From: Mucilaginibacter pedocola
Lineage (GTDB): Bacteria; Bacteroidota; Bacteroidia; Sphingobacteriales; Sphingobacteriaceae
Direction of reading: 5' to 3'
Length of the DNA: 64,000 bases
Assembly: GCF_002013915.1 (NCBI RefSeq)
Contig: NZ_MBTF01000037.1
Location: forward strand, 1 to 64,000
Part shown: positions 27,914 to 37,373 of the stretch, piece by piece
Layout of the letters: every line of letters begins with the position of its first letter
Numbering within the stretch: the stretch's first letter is position 1
Notes under the pieces: generated by a model
What the model was told of the DNA's origin: nothing
Databases searched by the model: none
What the model saw: only the letters and a program-made list of their open reading frames with translations
Program-made: the position numbers and the translations under genes

Positions 27914-29353
27914 ATGGAAAACAAAAAAGTATTTATTTCATATAGCTGGTCTTCACCATCGCATGAAGATTGGGTGTTAGAGCTGGCAAATCGATTAGTA
28001 CAAGACGGAGTTGATGTAATCTTAGATAAGTGGGATTTACGCGAAGGGCATGACAAATATCATTTCATGGAAGGAATGGTGAAATCCCCTGAAATTCATA
28101 AGGTATTAATAATATTAGACAAAAAATACTCAGAAAGGGCTGACGAACGCAAAGGAGGAGTAGGAACAGAAACTTTGATTATTACACCTCAGCTATATGC
28201 AGATGTTACCCAAGAGAAATTTATACCAGTGGTTGCAGAAGTTGACGAAAGTGGCAGAGCTTATCTTCCTGTTTATTTGAACGGTCGCATCTATATTGAC
28301 CTCTCATCTAAAGATAACTTTGAATCAAATTATGAAAAGTTATTGCGAAGTATATACAGCCGCCCCAGCCTCACCAAACCGGCGTTAGGAAAGCCCCCTA
28401 AATATTTATTTGAAGATTCGCCTGTCCGTTACAAGACTACGACCTTGGTTAGAGGACTGGATGTGCAATTAGACAAAAATCCAAATAGAATAAATAGTTT
28501 TTTAAACGATTTCCTGGACGAATATTTTAATTGCCTGCCAGCTTTTGCTTTAGATGAAACTGTAGGGACTAGCTACTTAGGAATCGGAGAGGCTGCCTTC
28601 AATAAATTAACTCAATATGTCTCTCTAAAAGCAGATTATTTAGCATTCTTGGGTAAGATTTTCAAAAGCACAATCTTCTTTGATCATGACGTATTAATAC
28701 AGTTTTTTGAGAAATTGCCAATGTTATTCAGACCTTTAGATGAAAAAACTAATTGGCAATCGTATTATTACGAACATTATAAGTTAATAATTTATGAATT
28801 GTTTTTATATACAATTGGGCTAGCAATTAGGTATAATAATTTGACACTGTTGCAAGACCTATTTCATTCCCGATATTTTATAAAAGATCAATATGAGGGT
28901 CCAAAAAGTAATGATGATTTTACTGCTTTTCGTTATTATTATGATATGATGGACCAGTATTATAAAAAACTTTATAATAAGAATTTTTATAGCCCGCAGG
29001 CCGATTTTATTATTCATCACATTCCAGAGGGTTGGAATCGTTCATTTGTGATTAACGCCGATTTACTTTGTTATTACGTTGCTGCGTTAAATAATAAAAT
29101 TTGGTTTCCGACCACATATATATACAAGTCTCGGGATGGCGCTCCGTTTGACATAATTTCAAGATTAGTTTCTCGAAAACATTTCGATAAGATAAAAAAT
29201 ATTTTAGGATTTGACGATGTAGAGGCATTGAAGAAAAGAATCGTCGAAGTTAATGAACTAAATCAGCGGAGAAGTTATTCTCACGGATTTGCGGATCCTA
29301 TACCCCAATTTTCCTATTATATCGATGTTGATAAAATTAGTACAGCATTGTAA
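27914..29353 (+). CDS. SEFIR-domain protein, candidate immune effector
   Basis: 479 residues. The N-terminal about 145 residues are a SEFIR domain (TIR-like): KKVFISYSWSSPSHEDWVLELANRLVQDGVDVILDKWDLREGHDKYHFME, then HKVLIILDKKYSERA and KFIPVVAEV. The remaining about 330 residues are helical, rich in Tyr and Phe, and not recognised. Bacterial SEFIR proteins are known in antiphage defence, where TIR-like domains deplete NAD; catalysis here is inferred. The coding sequence is visibly more AT-rich than the genes before and after it, with codons such as ATA and TTA frequent, consistent with transfer. No partner sensor gene is adjacent. Confidence 0.85.
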   Translation: MENKKVFISYSWSSPSHEDWVLELANRLVQDGVDVILDKWDLREGHDKYHFMEGMVKSPEIHKVLIILDKKYSERADERKGGVGTETLIITPQLYADVTQEKFIPVVAEVDESGRAYLPVYLNGRIYIDLSSKDNFESNYEKLLRSIYSRPSLTKPALGKPPKYLFEDSPVRYKTTTLVRGLDVQLDKNPNRINSFLNDFLDEYFNCLPAFALDETVGTSYLGIGEAAFNKLTQYVSLKADYLAFLGKIFKSTIFFDHDVLIQFFEKLPMLFRPLDEKTNWQSYYYEHYKLIIYELFLYTIGLAIRYNNLTLLQDLFHSRYFIKDQYEGPKSNDDFTAFRYYYDMMDQYYKKLYNKNFYSPQADFIIHHIPEGWNRSFVINADLLCYYVAALNNKIWFPTTYIYKSRDGAPFDIISRLVSRKHFDKIKNILGFDDVEALKKRIVEVNELNQRRSYSHGFADPIPQFSYYIDVDKISTAL

Positions 29354-29390
29354 TCCAACCTATCACATCACACAAGTGCGAATATGCATC

Positions 29391-29421
29391 GGTAGGGCAG
29401 GGCGCTTACCCGTGCCTAACC
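29391..29421. repeat. Imperfect hairpin after SEFIR gene
   Basis: GGTAGGGCA near 29391-29399 is nearly complementary to TGCCTAACC at 29413-29421 (two mismatches). No T run. It may be a transcription-end structure or a repeat remnant. Confidence 0.3.
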
Positions 29422-29488
29422 AACTAACAATTCCCAACATCTTCACAATTAAATTATATAATATCTATAGAATTAGTAGAATATATTA

Positions 29489-29496
29489 TATATTTG
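29489..29496 (+). promoter_or_regulatory. -7 box upstream of SAM riboswitch
   Basis: TATATTTG matches TAnnTTTG exactly in an AT-rich stretch, about 25 bases before the first riboswitch stem, so transcription would start just ahead of the aptamer. Confidence 0.55.
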
Positions 29497-29518
29497 CATC
29501 GTTAAATCGTTCTTAATA

Positions 29519-29624
29519 ATTATCAAGAAAGACTGAGGGATAGGCCCGATGATGTCTTAGCAACCTATACGCCCATTGGTATAAAGGTGCTAATTCCTAT
29601 CTGTAGCGATACAGAAAAGATAAT
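29519..29624 (+). ncRNA. SAM-I (S-box) riboswitch
   Basis: Aptamer landmarks appear in order: TTATCAAGAAAGACTGAGGG at the 5' side, then TAGGCCCGATGATG, TTAGCAACC, GGTGCTAATTCC and GATACAGAAAAGATAA. P1 forms from TTATC (29520-29524) and GATAA (29619-29623). These match conserved S-box positions (GAGGGA, GGCCC-TGA, GCAACC, GGTGC-AA-TCC). It heads the TlpA-like/SusC/SusD unit rather than a methionine biosynthesis gene. A short hairpin GCCT/AGGC followed by TTTT at 29645-29662 could be the expression platform. High SAM would be expected to lower expression, as in other S-box leaders. Confidence 0.88.
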
Positions 29625-29726
29625 GTCCGCAAAATATTTGCATTGCCTCGCACAAGGCTTTTCATTAGACCCCTCATCCCGCTCTTCTTTTTCTTGTTGG
29701 TTATTCGGAACACTGAATATCGAACT

Positions 29727-30305
29727 ATGAAAATTAAACATCTACTATTTACAGGCGCTTTACTGTTATCTGCATTTATTGCAGGCGCACAATCCGTACA
29801 ACCGGCTACCGCCGCAACTCCCGAGGTAGACCGCGGTTACCTTGTAAAAACAGGCGACACCGCCCCATCTGATTTTGAACTGCAACTAACCGACGGCACC
29901 AAAACTTCCCTGAAACAACTGGAGGGCAAGATCGTCATCCTGCAATTTACGGCAAGCTGGTGCGAAGTATGCCGCGAAGAAATGCCTCACCTGGAGAAAG
30001 ACGTATGGCAGGCCTACAAAGACAAAGGCGTGGTACTGATAGGTGTTGACCGAGACGAACCGCTGAAGAAAGTTAAAGCCTTCCGCAAATTCATGAACAT
30101 CAGCTACCCGCTGGCGCTGGATCCCGGTGCTGATATCTTTGGCCGCTTCGCCAACAAAAAAAGCGGCGTTACCCGCAATGTGGTGATAGACCGCGATGGT
30201 AAGATAGCCTACCTCACACGCCTTTACGATGAGCAGGAATTTGCCGGCATGCTAAAAGCCATAGACGACCTGGTGAATAAACCCGTTGCTGCCCTTAATA
30301 ACTAA
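29727..30305 (+). CDS. TlpA-like thioredoxin-fold protein, exported
   Basis: 192 residues from the ATG at 29727, which gives a signal peptide (KHLLFTGALLLSAFIAGAQS). A longer in-frame extension upstream runs into riboswitch-proximal leader sequence and is rejected. The redoxin domain has TGDTAPSDFELQLTDGTKTSL, active site SWCEVCREE (WCxxC), and a conserved cis-Pro region around MNISYPLALDPGA. Such proteins reduce disulfides or haem-protein thiols in the periplasm. Under a SAM riboswitch and ahead of SusC/SusD, it may keep an imported thiol or disulfide reduced (inference). Confidence 0.88.
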   Translation: MKIKHLLFTGALLLSAFIAGAQSVQPATAATPEVDRGYLVKTGDTAPSDFELQLTDGTKTSLKQLEGKIVILQFTASWCEVCREEMPHLEKDVWQAYKDKGVVLIGVDRDEPLKKVKAFRKFMNISYPLALDPGADIFGRFANKKSGVTRNVVIDRDGKIAYLTRLYDEQEFAGMLKAIDDLVNKPVAALNN

Positions 30306-30336
30306 TAACCCCTACATCCAAATCAATACATTTTAT

Positions 30337-30441
30337 ATGAACACAACTACCAGCCCCAACCGAAGCCGCTTGAAACAACCGACCTCGAACTTTAACAGCC
30401 TTATGGCAAGCTACCTCTCTTCTATGTGTTGTTTTTGCTAA
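30337..30441 (+). CDS. 34-residue Cys-terminated leader peptide (candidate)
   Basis: ATG at 30337, 31 bases after the TlpA-like stop; 34 codons; stop at 30439-30441. It begins MNTTTSPNRSRLKQP and ends SYLSSMCCFC-stop, with its only three cysteines in the last four codons (TGT TGT TTT TGC). The peptide is hydrophilic, has no signal or domain, and lies before two terminator-like hairpins and the SusC start. Cys-rich leader ORFs controlling sulfur genes by attenuation are known in actinobacteria, and the layout here is analogous. A role in sensing Cys-tRNA charging is inference; a secreted or modified peptide is an alternative. Confidence 0.55.
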   Translation: MNTTTSPNRSRLKQPTSNFNSLMASYLSSMCCFC

Positions 30442-30452
30442 CTCTTCAGCAA

Positions 30453-30501
30453 TTCCCGGCATAAGCTACCGCTTTAAGTAGCCGGGAACCATCAGCTTTT
30501 T
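30453..30501 (+). promoter_or_regulatory. Attenuator-like hairpin 1
   Basis: TTCCCGGC (30453-30460) pairs exactly with GCCGGGAA (30481-30488). An inner TAAGC/GCTTTA pairing fits in the loop, and five T follow at 30497-30501. It begins 12 bases after the leader stop codon, so a ribosome stalled on the Cys codons would abut or block it. Confidence 0.55.
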
Positions 30502-30537
30502 CATTCAATACAAATACCTAAAGCCCGCTGGTATTGC

Positions 30538-30590
30538 GCCAATTGTGCAAGCCATAGCGCGAGCTGTGTGCATTCGTATTGGCATTTTTT
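30538..30590 (+). terminator. Terminator-like hairpin 2 before SusC
   Basis: GCCAAT (30538-30543) pairs with ATTGGC (30578-30583), with inner TGCA/TGCA and AGC/GCT pairings, followed by ATTTTTT (30584-30590). It is 24 bases before the SusC ATG. A terminator between a promoter-proximal leader ORF and its structural genes is the hallmark of attenuation. Strength cannot be judged by eye because the loop is long. Confidence 0.45.
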
Positions 30591-30613
30591 CAGGACCTAT
30601 TCAACAATTGATC

Positions 30614-33600
30614 ATGTTTAAAACTTACAAATCAGTACTGGCAATTTTATTGCTACTCTTTACCCTGCAGCAGGCCAAGGCCCAGGCTTTAAAAATAAGC
30701 GGTGTGGTAACCGCTAAAACCGACGGGCAGCCGCTACCCGGCGTTAGCATCGGCGTAAAAGGAACCACCACCGGCACGCAAACAGATGTGCTGGGTAAAT
30801 TCACCATCAGCGCTAACGCGAACGATGTGCTGCATATATCGTATCTCGGCTTTGCGCAGCAGGATGTGGTTGTGGCCAACACCGGCGCGCCTCTCAATAT
30901 TGTTTTACAGGAAGCCGCCAATTCGCTTAACGAGGTTGTAGTTACAGCGCTGAATATCTCTAAGGATAAAAAGTCGCTGGGTTATGCCGTGCAGGGGCTG
31001 AAGTCTAAAGACATATCCGAAGCCAAGGAAACCAATTTTGTAAACGCTTTATCGGGTAAAATAGCGGGCGTTAACGTTACCGGCAGCCAGGGCGACATGG
31101 GTTCGTCGCGTATAGTTATCCGTGGCGAAACATCGGTATCGGGCAATAACCAACCGCTTTTTGTGGTGGATGGTGTTATTGTAGATAACTCGCAGTTTCA
31201 GGGTACCAACGGTTCGAGGGATTTCCAGAACGCCATTGCGGATATCAACCCCGAAGACATCGAATCGGTAAGCGTGCTGAAAGGGCCGAACGCCGCCGCG
31301 CTTTACGGTTACCGTGCAGCAGCAGGCGTTATCCTCATCAAAACCAAAACGGGCAAAGGCGCCAAAGGACTGGGCATTAGCATCAACTCTAATACCTCTT
31401 TTGCTACACTGAAGGTTTTCCCCGATTACCAGAACGAGTACGGGCAAGGCTCTAACGGCAAATTCAGCTATGTAAATGGTGCCGGCGCAGGTGTTAATGA
31501 TGGTGTTGACGAAAGCTGGGGGCCTGCTCTTAACGGACAGCTGATCCCGCAGTTCTTCTCCAACGGTCAGCCCGCTCCATTTGTGGCTCACCCTAATAAC
31601 GTGCGCGATTTCTTTAAAACCGGTGTTACGCTTAACAACGGCGTAGCCTTGGCAGGTAACAGCGATAAGTTCGATTACAGGCTATCGTACAACAACCTGC
31701 ACCAAACCGGTGTGGTGCCCAACTCGTCGCAAGGCAGAAACTCATTCCTCATCAATACTACCTTCCGCCCTACATCTAAACTGACGATCACTACCATTGC
31801 CAATTACATTAAAGACGATGCCGATAACCTGCCCGGCGCATACGGCAGGCGCGCTACCAGTACCATGCTGCAGTTTACATGGTTCGGCCGACAGGTGGAT
31901 ATAAACCAGCTGCGCAACTACCGCGATGCTAATGGCAACACCTTTAACTGGAACAACAGCTACTACAGCAACCCATATTTTATTGCTTACGAGAACACCG
32001 TGGGGCAGCACAAAAACCGCATCATTGGTAGCGTGGAGCTGAACTACAAGATCATAGATGGCTTATCGGCAAACTTCCGCACCGGTACCGATTATTATAA
32101 CGACCGGCGCAAGATCAAAGTAGCCTATGGCACCAACGGCACGCCATTTGGTTCGTACGAAGAGGATGCTTACACCGTGAACGAAACCAACACCGAGGGC
32201 CGTTTGCAATACACCAAAAAATTGAATAAAGACTTCACTTTTGATGGCTTTGTGGGTGGTAACATCAGCACTATTTTGAACGAGCAGAACGACCAGATAG
32301 CGCCTAAACTGGCGGTAGCGGGTTTATACACGCTGAGTAACTCGCGCGATCCATTGGTATCATCCAACTACTACGGTAAACTAAAAACCTACAGCTACTT
32401 TGCATCGGCACAAATTGGTTTCCGCAACTACGCGTTCCTGAACCTTACCGGCCGTAACGACTGGTCGTCAACCCTGCCGGCATCCAGCTTATCGTACTTC
32501 TACCCATCGGTGAACGGAAGTTTGATACTATCTGAAGCGCTCGACTTTAAGAGCGACGTATTAAGCTACCTGAAACTGCGAGGCGGATGGTCAAAAGTGG
32601 GTAAAGCAACTACGCCTTACCAGCTTATTAATACTTACAACTTCACCGCGCCCTTTGGTACCAACCCGCAGCAAAGCGCAGCAAGCATTAACCTGAACCC
32701 CGACCTGAAACCCGAAACCACAACATCGGGCGAGGCAGGCTTCGAGGCCGGTTTCCTGAACGACCGTGTTAGGCTTGATGTAAGTGTTTACAACACCAAC
32801 AGCGTTAACCAGATACTGAACGTGGATGTGAGCCAAACCACAGGCTACAGCCAAAAGCTGATCAACGGCGGCCGCATTAACAACAAGGGTTTGGAGGTGC
32901 AATTAGGCTTAACGCCCGTAAAAGCCAAGGACTTTACCTGGGATGTAACCGTGAACTACTCGCGCAACAAAAGCAAAGTTATATCGCTTGATAACGAAGG
33001 CAAACTGCAAAGCTACATACTGGGCACCAACCGCACGGTGCAGGTATTGGCAGCCGTTGGCCAGCCGTATGGTACCTTGTTTGGCACTTCGTATACCCGC
33101 GATGCATCGGGCCAAATTATTATTGGTGCTAATGGCACTCCTGTGGTTAACAACACCAAAACGTACCTGGGCAAATACACGCCCGATTGGTTAGGTAGCA
33201 TTAACAACAGCTTCACTTACAAAGGCATTAACCTGAGCTTTTTGGTGGATGCGCGCTTTGGTGGCTCTATCTATTCTAACACCAACCGCACGGGTACTTA
33301 CACCGGCGTGCTGGCGTCAACACTGCCCGGCCGTGGTGCGGCTAATGGCGGTTTAAGCTACTACTATCCAAACAATAATACCTCGGCTGCAGCCGTACAG
33401 ATCGCAGCAGGTACAGCGGCACCGGGCGGCGCTACCGTTTATGATGATGGTATGATCTTTAAAGGCGTAAAGGCTGATGGCTCGGCCAACACCACCATTG
33501 TGCCGGCACAATCGTACTACAAGGGCTTTACCAATGTTGATGAGGCTTTTGTTTACAGCGCATCGTACGTAAAGCTTCGCGAGGTTAAACTGGGTTACAC

Positions 33601-33802
33601 CTTCCCGTCGCAATGGGTTAAGGGTATCGGGCTGCAATCGGCAACACTATCTGTTGTTGGCCGTAACCTGTGGATCATCCATAAAAACGTTCCGAATATC
33701 GACCCTGAGACCGCCTTTAACACCGGTAACGGCCAAGGTTTGGAAGACCTGACCCTGCCAACCGTGCGCAACATTGGCTTTAATGTTAACCTTAAATTCT
33801 AA
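30614..33802 (+). CDS. SusC/RagA-family TonB-dependent outer-membrane transporter
   Basis: 1062 residues from the ATG at 30614, chosen because it gives a signal peptide (SVLAILLLLFTLQQAKAQ). The N-terminal carboxypeptidase-regulatory-like domain (KISGVVTAKTDGQPLPGVSIGVKGTT) is followed by the SusC signature NEVVVTAL, a plug with LSGKIAGVNVTGSQGDMGSSRIVIRG and VLKGPNAAALYGYRAAAGVILI, and a beta-barrel ending NIGFNVNLKF. It works with the SusD lipoprotein encoded five bases downstream to import a bound ligand using TonB energy. Its sulfur-type upstream controls suggest an organosulfur or sulfur-containing peptide substrate (inference); no glycan enzymes are adjacent. Confidence 0.93.
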   Translation: MFKTYKSVLAILLLLFTLQQAKAQALKISGVVTAKTDGQPLPGVSIGVKGTTTGTQTDVLGKFTISANANDVLHISYLGFAQQDVVVANTGAPLNIVLQEAANSLNEVVVTALNISKDKKSLGYAVQGLKSKDISEAKETNFVNALSGKIAGVNVTGSQGDMGSSRIVIRGETSVSGNNQPLFVVDGVIVDNSQFQGTNGSRDFQNAIADINPEDIESVSVLKGPNAAALYGYRAAAGVILIKTKTGKGAKGLGISINSNTSFATLKVFPDYQNEYGQGSNGKFSYVNGAGAGVNDGVDESWGPALNGQLIPQFFSNGQPAPFVAHPNNVRDFFKTGVTLNNGVALAGNSDKFDYRLSYNNLHQTGVVPNSSQGRNSFLINTTFRPTSKLTITTIANYIKDDADNLPGAYGRRATSTMLQFTWFGRQVDINQLRNYRDANGNTFNWNNSYYSNPYFIAYENTVGQHKNRIIGSVELNYKIIDGLSANFRTGTDYYNDRRKIKVAYGTNGTPFGSYEEDAYTVNETNTEGRLQYTKKLNKDFTFDGFVGGNISTILNEQNDQIAPKLAVAGLYTLSNSRDPLVSSNYYGKLKTYSYFASAQIGFRNYAFLNLTGRNDWSSTLPASSLSYFYPSVNGSLILSEALDFKSDVLSYLKLRGGWSKVGKATTPYQLINTYNFTAPFGTNPQQSAASINLNPDLKPETTTSGEAGFEAGFLNDRVRLDVSVYNTNSVNQILNVDVSQTTGYSQKLINGGRINNKGLEVQLGLTPVKAKDFTWDVTVNYSRNKSKVISLDNEGKLQSYILGTNRTVQVLAAVGQPYGTLFGTSYTRDASGQIIIGANGTPVVNNTKTYLGKYTPDWLGSINNSFTYKGINLSFLVDARFGGSIYSNTNRTGTYTGVLASTLPGRGAANGGLSYYYPNNNTSAAAVQIAAGTAAPGGATVYDDGMIFKGVKADGSANTTIVPAQSYYKGFTNVDEAFVYSASYVKLREVKLGYTFPSQWVKGIGLQSATLSVVGRNLWIIHKNVPNIDPETAFNTGNGQGLEDLTLPTVRNIGFNVNLKF

Positions 33803-33807
33803 CGACA

Positions 33808-35247
33808 ATGAAACTTAAATATACGACCATACTATTATCAGGAGCCCTTTTGCTATCGGTAAGCTCCTGCAAAAAGGACTTGGTGAAGATAAACCAAAAC
33901 CCCAACGCATCGCAAAATGCGCAACCTGATTACCTGCTGACGGCCGCCACAAAAGCAACGGCAGATACCTATTGGGGTACCGCCAATAATATGGATGCCA
34001 GCCTGCTATTTGTGCAATACTGGGCAAAAATACAATACACCGACCCCGACAGGTATATCTACACAAGCACCTCGTTCACCGATCTGTGGAGCGTTGGCTA
34101 CGCAAAAAGTATTGTGAACCTTAACCAGATCATTAAACTGGCCGATGCCCAGGCCAACCCCAATTATAAGGGTGTTGCGCTGGTGCTGCGCTCGTGGGTG
34201 TTCGCATTGTTAACAGATAACTATGGCGATATACCTTACACACAGGCTACCAATATCGACCAATATCTTACCCCGGCTTACGATAAGCAAAGGGATGTGT
34301 ACCTCGCTTTGCTGGAGGACCTGAAAACTGCACAGGCATCGCTAAATGTAGCTGGTCCCGCCATATTGGGCGATGTAATCTACGCCAATAAAATAGCGCC
34401 GTGGAAAAAATTCGCTAACTCGTTGCGCCTGCGCATAGCCCTGCGCATTGCCGACCGCGAGCCCGAAAAAGCAAAGCAAGTAATAGCCGATATACAGGCC
34501 GAAGGCAGTGGCTACATCAGCGCCAACAGCGAAACCGCCCAATTGGTTTACCTGGCATCACCGAACCAAAACCCGATAAGCAACCTGTTCGACACCCGTG
34601 ATGATTACCGCATCAGCAAAACCATTGTAGATAAATTGTTCGCGCTGAACGACCCGCGCCTGCCTATATATTCCAGCAAAACGCAGGATGCTACGCCAAA
34701 TACCTATGTAGGTATACCCAACGGTTTATTAGTGGGCGATGCAAGTAATTTGGGCTTCACCAAAACATCAAAACCCGGTACCTACTTTTTGGCACCCGGC
34801 GCCCCGGCAGTCATAATCAGCTATGCCGAAGTATTGTTCGACCGTGCCGAAGCCGCCGCCCGTGGCTTCACTACCGAAAACGCCGCCGACCTGTACACCC
34901 AAGCAATCACCGCCTCGTTAAATCAATACAGCATAGGCGATGCTGCCATAGCAACATACCTTGCACAGCCGGCGGTAGCTTATGATGCCACGAATTATAA
35001 AAAATCGATAGGGGAGCAGAAGTGGCTGGCCTTATTCGGCCAGGGCTTAGAAGCATTTGCCGAATGGCGCAGGTTGGATTACCCGCAACTGGCACCAGCC
35101 GTAGCCGGCACGCTAAGCGGTAAACTACCCCTACGTTTCCTTTACCCCGGCACCGAGCAATCCCTAAACGGAACAAGCTACAAAGCCGCCGTTGCCAACC
35201 AGGGCGCAGATGTGTTGACGACTAAGCTTTGGTTCGATGTGAATTGA
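33808..35247 (+). CDS. SusD-like_2 substrate-binding lipoprotein
   Basis: 479 residues, lipoprotein signal with lipobox Cys in SVSSCKKDLV. INQNPNASQNAQPDYLLTAATKATADTYWG, ASLLFVQYWAKIQYTDPDRY and LRSWVFALLTDNYGDIPYT place it in the SusD-like_2 group (PF12771) rather than classical SusD. The C-terminal segment QKWLALFGQGLEAFAEWRRLDYPQL is typical. It caps the SusC barrel. Starts five bases after SusC and ends 21 bases before a strong terminator. Confidence 0.92.
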   Translation: MKLKYTTILLSGALLLSVSSCKKDLVKINQNPNASQNAQPDYLLTAATKATADTYWGTANNMDASLLFVQYWAKIQYTDPDRYIYTSTSFTDLWSVGYAKSIVNLNQIIKLADAQANPNYKGVALVLRSWVFALLTDNYGDIPYTQATNIDQYLTPAYDKQRDVYLALLEDLKTAQASLNVAGPAILGDVIYANKIAPWKKFANSLRLRIALRIADREPEKAKQVIADIQAEGSGYISANSETAQLVYLASPNQNPISNLFDTRDDYRISKTIVDKLFALNDPRLPIYSSKTQDATPNTYVGIPNGLLVGDASNLGFTKTSKPGTYFLAPGAPAVIISYAEVLFDRAEAAARGFTTENAADLYTQAITASLNQYSIGDAAIATYLAQPAVAYDATNYKKSIGEQKWLALFGQGLEAFAEWRRLDYPQLAPAVAGTLSGKLPLRFLYPGTEQSLNGTSYKAAVANQGADVLTTKLWFDVN

Positions 35248-35390: not shown

Positions 35391-37373
35391 CTAGCTAATG
35401 GAGAAGTTATCGGCTAAATCAGTTTTGATATTATCTTCTATTTCATCTAACGTTTGCATGGCATTGTCTGCATCGATAATGATTTCTCTCAAACTTGAAT
35501 AAGTCAATAGATTGTTGACATTTTCAAAGTTAATTGTGCTGTTAAGTGAGCTATTGATGTTTCCTGTTAATTTTACAAACTGATACATTTTTTTGAATTT
35601 GTATTTTATCAACGTTTTTTTAGGATCAACATCTCTCCGATTTATATATTTCACAAGTGGATTTTTTTTTGCCGCTAGTATATACAAAATCAAAATTTTG
35701 GGATGATCTGCAAAAAATGCAAATATGTCACCACCATCCATATGGGGCAACGCTATGCCTTCGAGTCTGTTGTTGCCTTGTTCATTTATACTGAACAAAT
35801 CTATCATATTGTCCAGCCTGTCATCATCTTCGTGGTTAATACTGTTATCAAGTTGCGCCAAATAGTGTTGTGTCAAAAAACATAACTCCTTACGATATGT
35901 AATTTCTTTGTTGGGAATAGACAAATCAAGATTTCGAAGATACGATAGAGAAAAATTGCGAAATTCTGTCAGCAAGTTTAGTAATATAACATTTCGAAAG
36001 ATTTTATAATCCATATCGTAATAGAGATCAAGGATATTTTGATATTTTTCAATCTCTTTGTGATTGTAAATTTGAGATATTATAGAAGTTTGGTGCTCTT
36101 TTGAATCTAGATAGATGAATTGCGCAGCAAAATATTCCTGTAATGATTTATGAGCCCAGCGATAATAGTTCCCGTCTTGGGTGAACAGCGGTACAGTTAT
36201 TAATAAATCATTTAAGAAGTCAGAATCTCTAAATTCTATTCCTACACAAAACCCTCTACTTTCCCTTATGAGTCCCAATAATTCGTCTTTATCAAATTCG
36301 ATTTTTTGTCGTTTGAATGTGGAAAATCCTATATGCCTCAATACTCTATGAAAGTCATCTATTTCTAGTTTTGAATATTTCGGGTGGGAATAAGAATCAC
36401 CTTTAGTTAAGTCATGATTTTCAAAGTTTGCGTCGTAAACCTGTCTGTAAAAAAGATATTTTTTAAAAGGAATGGCTTGTTTGAACTGAAATGCTGTAAA
36501 CAAGAGTGATACCAATAGAGGGTTTGTCATAAATTCCTCCATATTGGACATCGTGCTTTCTTGGAGTTTTTTTATCAATGATGTTGAAATATCTCCTTGT
36601 TTATCATATTTTCTAAGTAGTTCAAATGCTTCATTTTTATTTAAGGGTTCGATTCTAAATTGTTCAAAGTCACCAAAGCTTGCTAATGCTTTTTCTGGTC
36701 TAGAGGTTAAAATAAATTTATTATCATTTGCCTTTGATATAAAGCTTTGGATATCGGCCGTAACTATTTCTCTGTCAGTTAATGATATCTCGTCAAAGCC
36801 GTCAAGAATAAAGATAAACCCTCCGTCTTTGATAAGTTCAAACAGTAATTGAGAATTGAACTCTTTGTCGATCGCACTTATCTGTTCATGAATTTCTTTT
36901 AATATCGTTTTGTCCTTGCTTAGCCTTCGTAGTTCGATCAAAATGGGCGCCCCGTGCCGCTTATCTATAACATCCATGAATATTATCTTCATTAATGTTG
37001 ATTTGCCCATACCGGCTGTGTCGGTAATTAATATTCTTTCATACTTTTGTAACAACTCATTTGGAAAACCAGTTAACTGAGTCTTTTTATCATCATTTGA
37101 ATCACGGATTGTTAAAGGAATATAAATCTCCTTGAGAAGTAATTGGGAATTATTGAATACCAAGGTATTGGCAACGGATATTTTTTTATAAGTTCTATGA
37201 AAATATTCTGAAAAGTGCTTATCTGTGGGAACCCAATCTTTATTAAAATCAATCTTTAGTCTTTTATTTAACTTTTCAAGTTTAGGGACTAAAAATGTGT
37301 CAACGACTGCTTTTATTAACGGGCTTGCAACAATTAATGCATCTTTGACTTGACTAAGTTCATTTTGTGCCAT
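35391..37373 (-). CDS. NACHT-domain NTPase (bacterial NLR-like), candidate defence gene
   Basis: 660 residues. N-terminal about 90 residues: helical and not recognised. NACHT ATPase: Walker A TDTAGMGKST (residues 117-126), Walker B FIFILDGFDEIS (186-197, Asp191 with DE at 194-195), sensor-type FILTSRPEK, then the winged-helix/helical region with MTNPLLVSLLFTAF and the WAHKSLQEYFAAQFI motif common to NACHT proteins. The C-terminal about 200 residues are a probable sensor region without clear repeats. Several bacterial NACHT proteins protect against phage (known); this one is assigned by similarity. It is visibly AT-rich against its neighbours and monocistronic. Confidence 0.87.
   Translation of the reverse strand: MAQNELSQVKDALIVASPLIKAVVDTFLVPKLEKLNKRLKIDFNKDWVPTDKHFSEYFHRTYKKISVANTLVFNNSQLLLKEIYIPLTIRDSNDDKKTQLTGFPNELLQKYERILITDTAGMGKSTLMKIIFMDVIDKRHGAPILIELRRLSKDKTILKEIHEQISAIDKEFNSQLLFELIKDGGFIFILDGFDEISLTDREIVTADIQSFISKANDNKFILTSRPEKALASFGDFEQFRIEPLNKNEAFELLRKYDKQGDISTSLIKKLQESTMSNMEEFMTNPLLVSLLFTAFQFKQAIPFKKYLFYRQVYDANFENHDLTKGDSYSHPKYSKLEIDDFHRVLRHIGFSTFKRQKIEFDKDELLGLIRESRGFCVGIEFRDSDFLNDLLITVPLFTQDGNYYRWAHKSLQEYFAAQFIYLDSKEHQTSIISQIYNHKEIEKYQNILDLYYDMDYKIFRNVILLNLLTEFRNFSLSYLRNLDLSIPNKEITYRKELCFLTQHYLAQLDNSINHEDDDRLDNMIDLFSINEQGNNRLEGIALPHMDGGDIFAFFADHPKILILYILAAKKNPLVKYINRRDVDPKKTLIKYKFKKMYQFVKLTGNINSSLNSTINFENVNNLLTYSSLREIIIDADNAMQTLDEIEDNIKTDLADNFSIS

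Follow-up and report, generated by a model that had tools for sequence, protein, structure and literature searches.

A conserved short open reading frame with a cysteine-rich end between redoxin and susC genes of Mucilaginibacter pedocola, the probable leader of a cysteine-responsive attenuator

The operon and its leader open reading frame

The window analyzed here is the whole 64,000-nt stretch of Mucilaginibacter pedocola DNA at positions 1 to 64,000 of contig NZ_MBTF01000037.1. On its plus strand, a SAM riboswitch aptamer (29517 to 29626) heads an operon containing a gene for a TlpA/ResA-like redoxin with a WCEVC motif (29727 to 30305; AhpC-TSA, 4e-24), a short open reading frame (ORF; 30337 to 30441), the presumed regulated gene, encoding a SusC/RagA outer-membrane transporter (30614 to 33802), and the gene of a SusD-like lipoprotein (33808 to 35247; PF12771). 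The aptamer, upstream of the redoxin gene, belongs to RF00162 (85.6 bits; gathering threshold, 44.4), and the transporter belongs to SusC/RagA (TIGR04056, 644 bits; cutoff, 368). In a string scan of positions 29301 to 30700, TAnnTTTG, a promoter-like string of the -7 type of Bacteroidota, occurred twice: at 29489 to 29496, 20 nt 5′ of the riboswitch, and at 30134, inside the redoxin gene. These positions fit a single transcript and do not prove one. From the SAM riboswitch at the head of the operon, we infer that SusCD of the window handles sulfur; that the substrate is a disulfide or thiol compound is a guess suggested by the redoxin.

The operon is flanked directly on its 5′ side by a candidate anti-phage gene for a bSEFIR-type protein (27914 to 29353; PADLOC bSEFIR, 9.6e-101; Pfam SEFIR) and directly on its 3′ side by a minus-strand gene for a NACHT protein with an SNaCT5 C-terminal domain (35391 to 37373; 8.6e-47), for which PADLOC gave no match. 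Elsewhere in the window, an AraC-type regulator ORF is followed in tandem by a longer, closely similar one (1300 to 2847), near a transposase-like ORF at 17 to 982 (all annotated by eye).

The short ORF is intact from ATG to TAA and has 34 codons, encoding the peptide MNTTTSPNRSRLKQPTSNFNSLMASYLSSMCCFC. It starts 31 nt 3′ of the redoxin stop codon and ends 172 nt 5′ of the susC start at 30614. The final four codons are TGT TGT TTT TGC, which places Cys at codons 31, 32, and 34. With the preceding ATG, they form the putative control codons, Met-Cys-Cys-Phe-Cys, at 30424 to 30438, as the tail composition of the group of homologues also suggests. The initial annotation had described a complete small ORF between the redoxin and SusC genes under a SAM riboswitch, with three Cys codons in its last four positions; the sequence and the RF00162 match bear out both statements. 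Pfam and other protein-family searches with the peptide matched no family, and the leader region had no match among known RNA families at E values up to 1. The exact string MCCFC followed by a stop codon was rejected as a marker; it was found at six places in 5 of 151 family genomes, and the window locus is the only leader among them.

Cysteine-tailed leaders in relatives and before other sulfur genes

A redoxin search of 120 genomes of the genus gave 52 matches in 47 genomes, and 30 loci were fetched. SusC was the next gene in 28 of these, including the window's own locus, and a short Cys-tailed ORF lay in all 28 gaps. The two redoxin loci without a downstream SusC gene (L069 and L070) both lacked the ORF. 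The tails of the 28 loci include SMCCFC, SMCCYC, SMCCCC, AMCCSC, AMCCCF, CCCCC, SMRCCC, SMHCCC, NMHCYC, NKCCCC, and CCCCCCSLC. The body of the peptide is divergent and its Cys-rich end is maintained; differences at codon positions 1, 2, and 3 numbered 128, 114, and 175, respectively, among 25 nonindependent pairs, consistent with weak constraint on the body. The tail is determined by its codon content rather than as a fixed peptide.

A named set of 30 loci from Mucilaginibacter and Pedobacter species and metagenome-assembled genomes included 18 redoxin-SusC pairs, 17 of which had the ORF; the exception (L313) ends in MQSMRC, with one Cys. Among the other 12 named loci, one ORF ends in RMCMYRCC before a gene without a Pfam match (L335), L331 is an incidental match, and the remainder have no such ORF. 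The initial annotation had made its case depend on conservation of the start, stop, and Cys codons in homologous loci, and the ORF passed, with 28 of 28 genus loci and 17 of 18 named pairs, although the two sets overlap and loci within one genus are not independent. The window ORF thus has the features of the cysteine-codon leader class, namely, a short conserved ORF with Cys codons beside its stop, upstream of a putatively sulfur-related gene.

Further leaders were found in the same genome. Scans of its sequence for CCxC and CCC before a stop codon gave 114 and 84 places, respectively, 30 of each being fetched. Besides the window ORF, two of the fetched places were leader-like, so that the genome holds at least two more Cys-tailed leaders; the remaining fetched places either were not the end of any ATG-initiated ORF or fell within or next to longer ORFs. 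One leader (L017/L188) is a 36-codon ORF ending in CICMCCCC, located 9 nt after a SAM riboswitch and followed by metY. The other (L029/L198) ends in CLSACCCC, 56 nt 5′ of a TonB receptor gene and 6 to 7 kb from two PAPS-reductase-family genes, one of them matched by CysH. The TonB leader is not at any of the five SAM riboswitch places of this genome. Among 61 genus genomes, 11 had homologues of the TonB receptor, and in each of these an upstream ORF ends in at least two Cys, while the peptides outside the tail look unrelated by eye.

SAM riboswitches were detected in 118 of 121 family genomes. The 109 listed family places, taken roughly by score, and the five of the M. pedocola genome gave 114 loci, in which the first downstream gene was classed by BLAST with class references checked against NCBIfam and Pfam; the metY reference matched TIGR01326 (661 bits), the O-acetylhomoserine sulfhydrylase/cysteine synthase family. 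Tails rich in Cys, or in Cys and Met, preceded metY in 31 of 45 loci and metX in 4 of 4 (27 and 2, respectively, by a strict rule requiring three or more Cys among the final six residues). Tails were also present in 4 of 4 loci with redoxin and SusC, in 3 of 12 with SusC directly behind the riboswitch (1 by the strict rule), and in 1 of 5 with unclassified genes. No Cys-rich tail was found in the 41 loci with NifS-like (12), metH (11), peroxiredoxin (7), metE (6), or homoserine dehydrogenase (5) genes, nor in three gene classes with a single locus each.

The 14 metY loci outside the pattern include 11 from genus g16, where the Cys tail is missing in 11 of 12 metY loci and the ORF mostly ends in RMR. 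Those 11 loci (L094, L097, L099, L112, L117, L128, L149, L151, L159, L174, and L175) keep the nucleotide motif CGAATG(C/T)G..TAG, even across a frame change in L094. The motif is followed by TCGT and has a downstream partner, GACGAC (AACGAC in L159), between the SAM riboswitch and metY, at 39 to 76 nt from the motif start in nine loci measured. An Rfam search with the L112 leader gave no match. The g16 motif is a different, RNA-level element and is possibly an undescribed cis-regulatory RNA. In the SusC loci of genus g14, RMC or RMCM occurs in the ORF, mostly not at its end, and these ORFs may be degenerate leaders; L077, L078, L080, L082, L084, and L126 have a SAM riboswitch, an ORF starting with MEK, MKK, or MKN and carrying an MC, RMC(M), or RMR motif, and then SusC.

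Outside the family, 60 riboswitch places were picked for spread over families (L211 to L240 were left out). None of the 23 metY loci behind SAM riboswitches in these families had the tail. The sole case was L265 (family f5), with a riboswitch, an ORF ending in CCCCCCC, and cysH, followed by a nitrite/sulfite-reductase-family gene and a tetrapyrrole methylase gene. A search with the L265 CysH gave matches in 57 of 295 genomes of the class, and 30 loci were fetched. Leaders lay immediately upstream of cysH in 5 of 6 loci of family f42 (MTPIKQHHSSIASNRMMCCCCCCC and variants) and in one f2 locus. The f42 leaders (L340 to L344) start about 20 nt after a promoter-like site, TATATTTG, and no SAM riboswitch was found upstream of them.

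The tail is a coding feature, as judged by strand, frame, and composition. ORFs with three or more Cys among their final five residues made up 33 of 631 on the sense strand versus 1 of 909 on the antisense strand in the 114 family loci, and 1 of 303 versus 0 of 448 in the 60 other-family loci. An ATG follows the riboswitch at a distance of 6 to 11 nt in 49 of 49 metY/metX loci (for L141, this ATG starts metY itself). Runs of at least three adjacent TGY codons in any frame were present in 21 metY/metX loci, and in all 21 they share the frame of the leader ATG and precede its stop. In the last eight residues, Cys makes up 41% (SusC) and 50% (metY/metX outside g16) versus 2.5 to 2.7% in the body, and Met makes up 21% and 18%, respectively, versus 1.6 to 1.9%, i.e., enrichments of 16- to 19-fold for Cys and about 11-fold for Met. 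The SusC composition and pairing tests used 29 loci, with L071 dropped (SusC start not found) and L323 and L324 added. Since Met is enriched in the tail too, Met as well as Cys may be sensed.

RNA pairing and terminators downstream of the leader

Three stems can be drawn 3′ of the control codons in the window. A possible local stem pairs TTGCT (30435 to 30439), which overlaps the last Cys codon and the stop, with AGCAA (30448 to 30452); it is suggested by complementarity (P = 0.018) and an alignment fold. Hairpin 1 (TTCCCGGC/GCCGGGAA; 30453 to 30488) is predicted by folding and has a counterpart in a 6-sequence alignment, with a few double changes. Hairpin 2 (GCCAAT/ATTGGC; 30538 to 30583) is terminator-like in the predicted fold, with a run of six Ts extending it to 30590. 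The leader fold is slightly better than those of shuffled sequences (z = -1.84 and -1.45).

The initial annotation had pointed to two terminator-like hairpins. Both appear in the predicted fold; a terminator scan picked neither of them whole, taking a short stem inside hairpin 2 (30557 to 30571), and hairpin 2 with its T-run was not retained in the aligned homologues (two alignments, by eye). The scan gave 5 sites versus 3.2 ± 1.7 expected from shuffled sequence. An intrinsic terminator was rejected as the readout on these two grounds, and the leader lacks what marks a classical attenuator, a conserved terminator with hairpin and U-run ahead of the gene. Since intrinsic terminators are not conserved, a readout other than an intrinsic terminator is proposed.

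Complementarity between the SusC tail and the following 24 nt exceeded that of shuffled sequences in 16 of 29 loci (P < 0.05); the same held for 4 of 8 metY tails. In the larger SusC clade, 92% of cells retain a six-pair local stem, which scores above slid versions, with no compensatory changes or covariation found. RNAalifold pairs the control codons of the SusC group preferably with a segment about 45 nt further on. Within the genus, a hairpin that follows the stop of the metY leaders covaries, with three pairs showing double changes, and exceeds shuffles; its 5′ arm can instead pair with the Met-Cys codons in 97% of cells, with no double change. In family f42, the predicted folds of four of five loci (two of them alike) join the control codons to the presumed start region of cysH; in L340, that region is paired by RNA after the stop. 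On these models, L340 to L344 should be a clean system for tests of translational attenuation. A scan for one RNA partner of the tail common to all groups, from which four metY loci were dropped (gene start not found), gave mixed positions and no such partner. Synonymous Cys codons in the SusC group depend on position (second-last TGC in 23 of 24, third-last TGT in 21 of 29), which suggests pairing besides coding. Alternative RNA pairing in the leaders is likely.

Proposed mechanism, alternatives, and known systems

We consider it highly probable, from the comparison of sequences, that 30337 to 30441 is the leader ORF of a ribosome-mediated, cysteine-responsive attenuator for susCD inside the SAM-riboswitch-headed operon. 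The ORF, its conservation, its Cys/Met-rich tail, its frame, and its sulfur-gene context are observations, and from them we infer translation of the leader, stalling, a response to cysteine, and the readout. When Cys-tRNA is scarce, the ribosome would halt on the final Met/Cys codons of the ORF and keep the RNA there open; the halt would change the pairing in the 172-nt untranslated spacer, and susC would be expressed. When cysteine is plentiful, the ribosome would complete the ORF and depart, the control-codon segment would pair with RNA that follows the stop, and this would lower susC output via blocked translation initiation or Rho-dependent termination, not via an intrinsic terminator. The partner genes of the leaders, metY, metX, the TonB receptor gene, and cysH, are mostly sulfur genes, and because similar ORFs stand before sulfur genes in relatives, the leader is probably a cysteine-shortage switch. 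The cysteine-attenuator interpretation in the initial annotation is supported by these Cys-tailed ORFs at homologous and other sulfur loci.

Thiols of the nascent peptide could instead sense copper or redox and arrest or release the ribosome, like CruR of Bordetella. Passages in PMC9426467 describe CruR before bfrG as a 145-residue DUF2946 protein for which export is predicted; it and other CruR-type upstream ORFs have CXXC and RAPP motifs at near-constant spacing. CruR is thus a precedent for a Cys-containing upstream ORF before a TonB-dependent transporter, and the operon of the window has a redoxin gene. The window peptide, however, has no Pfam match and lacks DUF2946, CXXC, and RAPP, so that identity with this copper-responsive type was rejected. 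The number and spacing of Cys also vary among leaders (CCFC, CCSC, CYC, CCCCC, and CCCCCC), and other leaders stand before metY, metX, and cysH. We regard sensing of this kind as unlikely.

Slightly less likely again is that an RNA motif is conserved and that its UGY-rich pairing strand merely happens to read as Cys codons. The position-specific synonymous codons of the SusC group and the survival of the g16 nucleotide motif through the frame change in L094 would both fit such a motif, but it would not account for TGY runs that keep to the leader frame in every metY/metX locus that has them, or for tails that gain, lose, or swap whole codons.

The distance between leader and susC was 140 to 194 nt in 29 loci measured, which is long for translation coupling. 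This spacing makes it very improbable that the leader merely aids ribosome access to susC with no sensing of cysteine, a role that would also leave the Cys/Met tail and the sulfur-gene partners unexplained; a part for leader ORFs in translation coupling has been proposed (PMC4833913). A functionless chance ORF, for which its shortness and weakly constrained body could speak, was rejected as next to impossible given its conservation in homologues and the strand and frame controls (33 of 631 versus 1 of 909; 21 of 21 in frame).

A broader reading can be put forward tentatively: Bacteroidota may have recurrent sulfur-amino-acid attenuators, with a SAM riboswitch followed by a Met- and Cys-coding leader whose control-codon RNA would mask the downstream spacer or start, at both importer and synthesis genes. 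With importers (SusCD and TonB) and synthesis genes under such two-signal control, the outer membrane would be opened to sulfur sources only when SAM and charged Cys/Met-tRNA are both low. On account of their leaders, a group of SusCD/TonB transporters are likely to import sulfur compounds, and a short ORF with a Cys/Met-rich end provides a sequence rule for finding such genes.

The initial annotation had noted that cysteine leaders are known in actinobacteria and that no equivalent is known to be described in Bacteroidota. General remarks on leader peptides in Bacteroidota, in passages of PMC7366714 and PMC9723704, make no reference to cysteine, and no description of a cysteine leader or attenuator in this phylum was found in open-licence full-text literature. 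PMC9723704 reports leader-peptide attenuation before amino-acid operons of a flavobacterium, which its passages leave unnamed, and a cysteine case could be among them.

In actinobacteria, short ORFs whose Cys codons form a run close to the stop lie upstream of cysteine and sulfur genes, according to passages of PMC1262725 and PMC4633059, and polycysteine short-ORF attenuators are attributed to Canestrari 2020 as cited in a passage of PMC13236596. The leaders described here resemble them in having Cys codons near the stop, sulfur genes downstream, and no conserved terminator, the last as stated for the mycobacterial loci of PMC1262725. They differ in that they belong to another phylum, with no sequence relation claimed, are often behind a SAM riboswitch, have Met codons in the tail, and stand before outer-membrane importers besides metY, metX, and cysH. 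Unlike the leaderless mycobacterial polycysteine upstream ORFs, the window ORF lies inside an operon and is preceded by the redoxin gene, so it is neither leaderless nor the first ORF of its transcript.

In Rhodobacterales, uORFC-8-2 before cysS is also proposed to act by ribosome-mediated attenuation through Cys codons (passages of PMC8632094). It has two tandem Cys codons, usually codons 14 and 15, in a stem, and a U-run terminator, as that source describes it, whereas the tail here adjoins the stop and no terminator is conserved. As to RF00162, the SAM riboswitch lies 5′ of the metY, metX, and SusC leaders under study, each of which is a further element added downstream of the aptamer; no riboswitch was found at the TonB and f42 cysH leaders. 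The leader probably works like known cysteine attenuators, in series with the SAM riboswitch and responding to Cys and perhaps also Met, and it is apparently the first described cysteine attenuator in Bacteroidota and new for SusCD.
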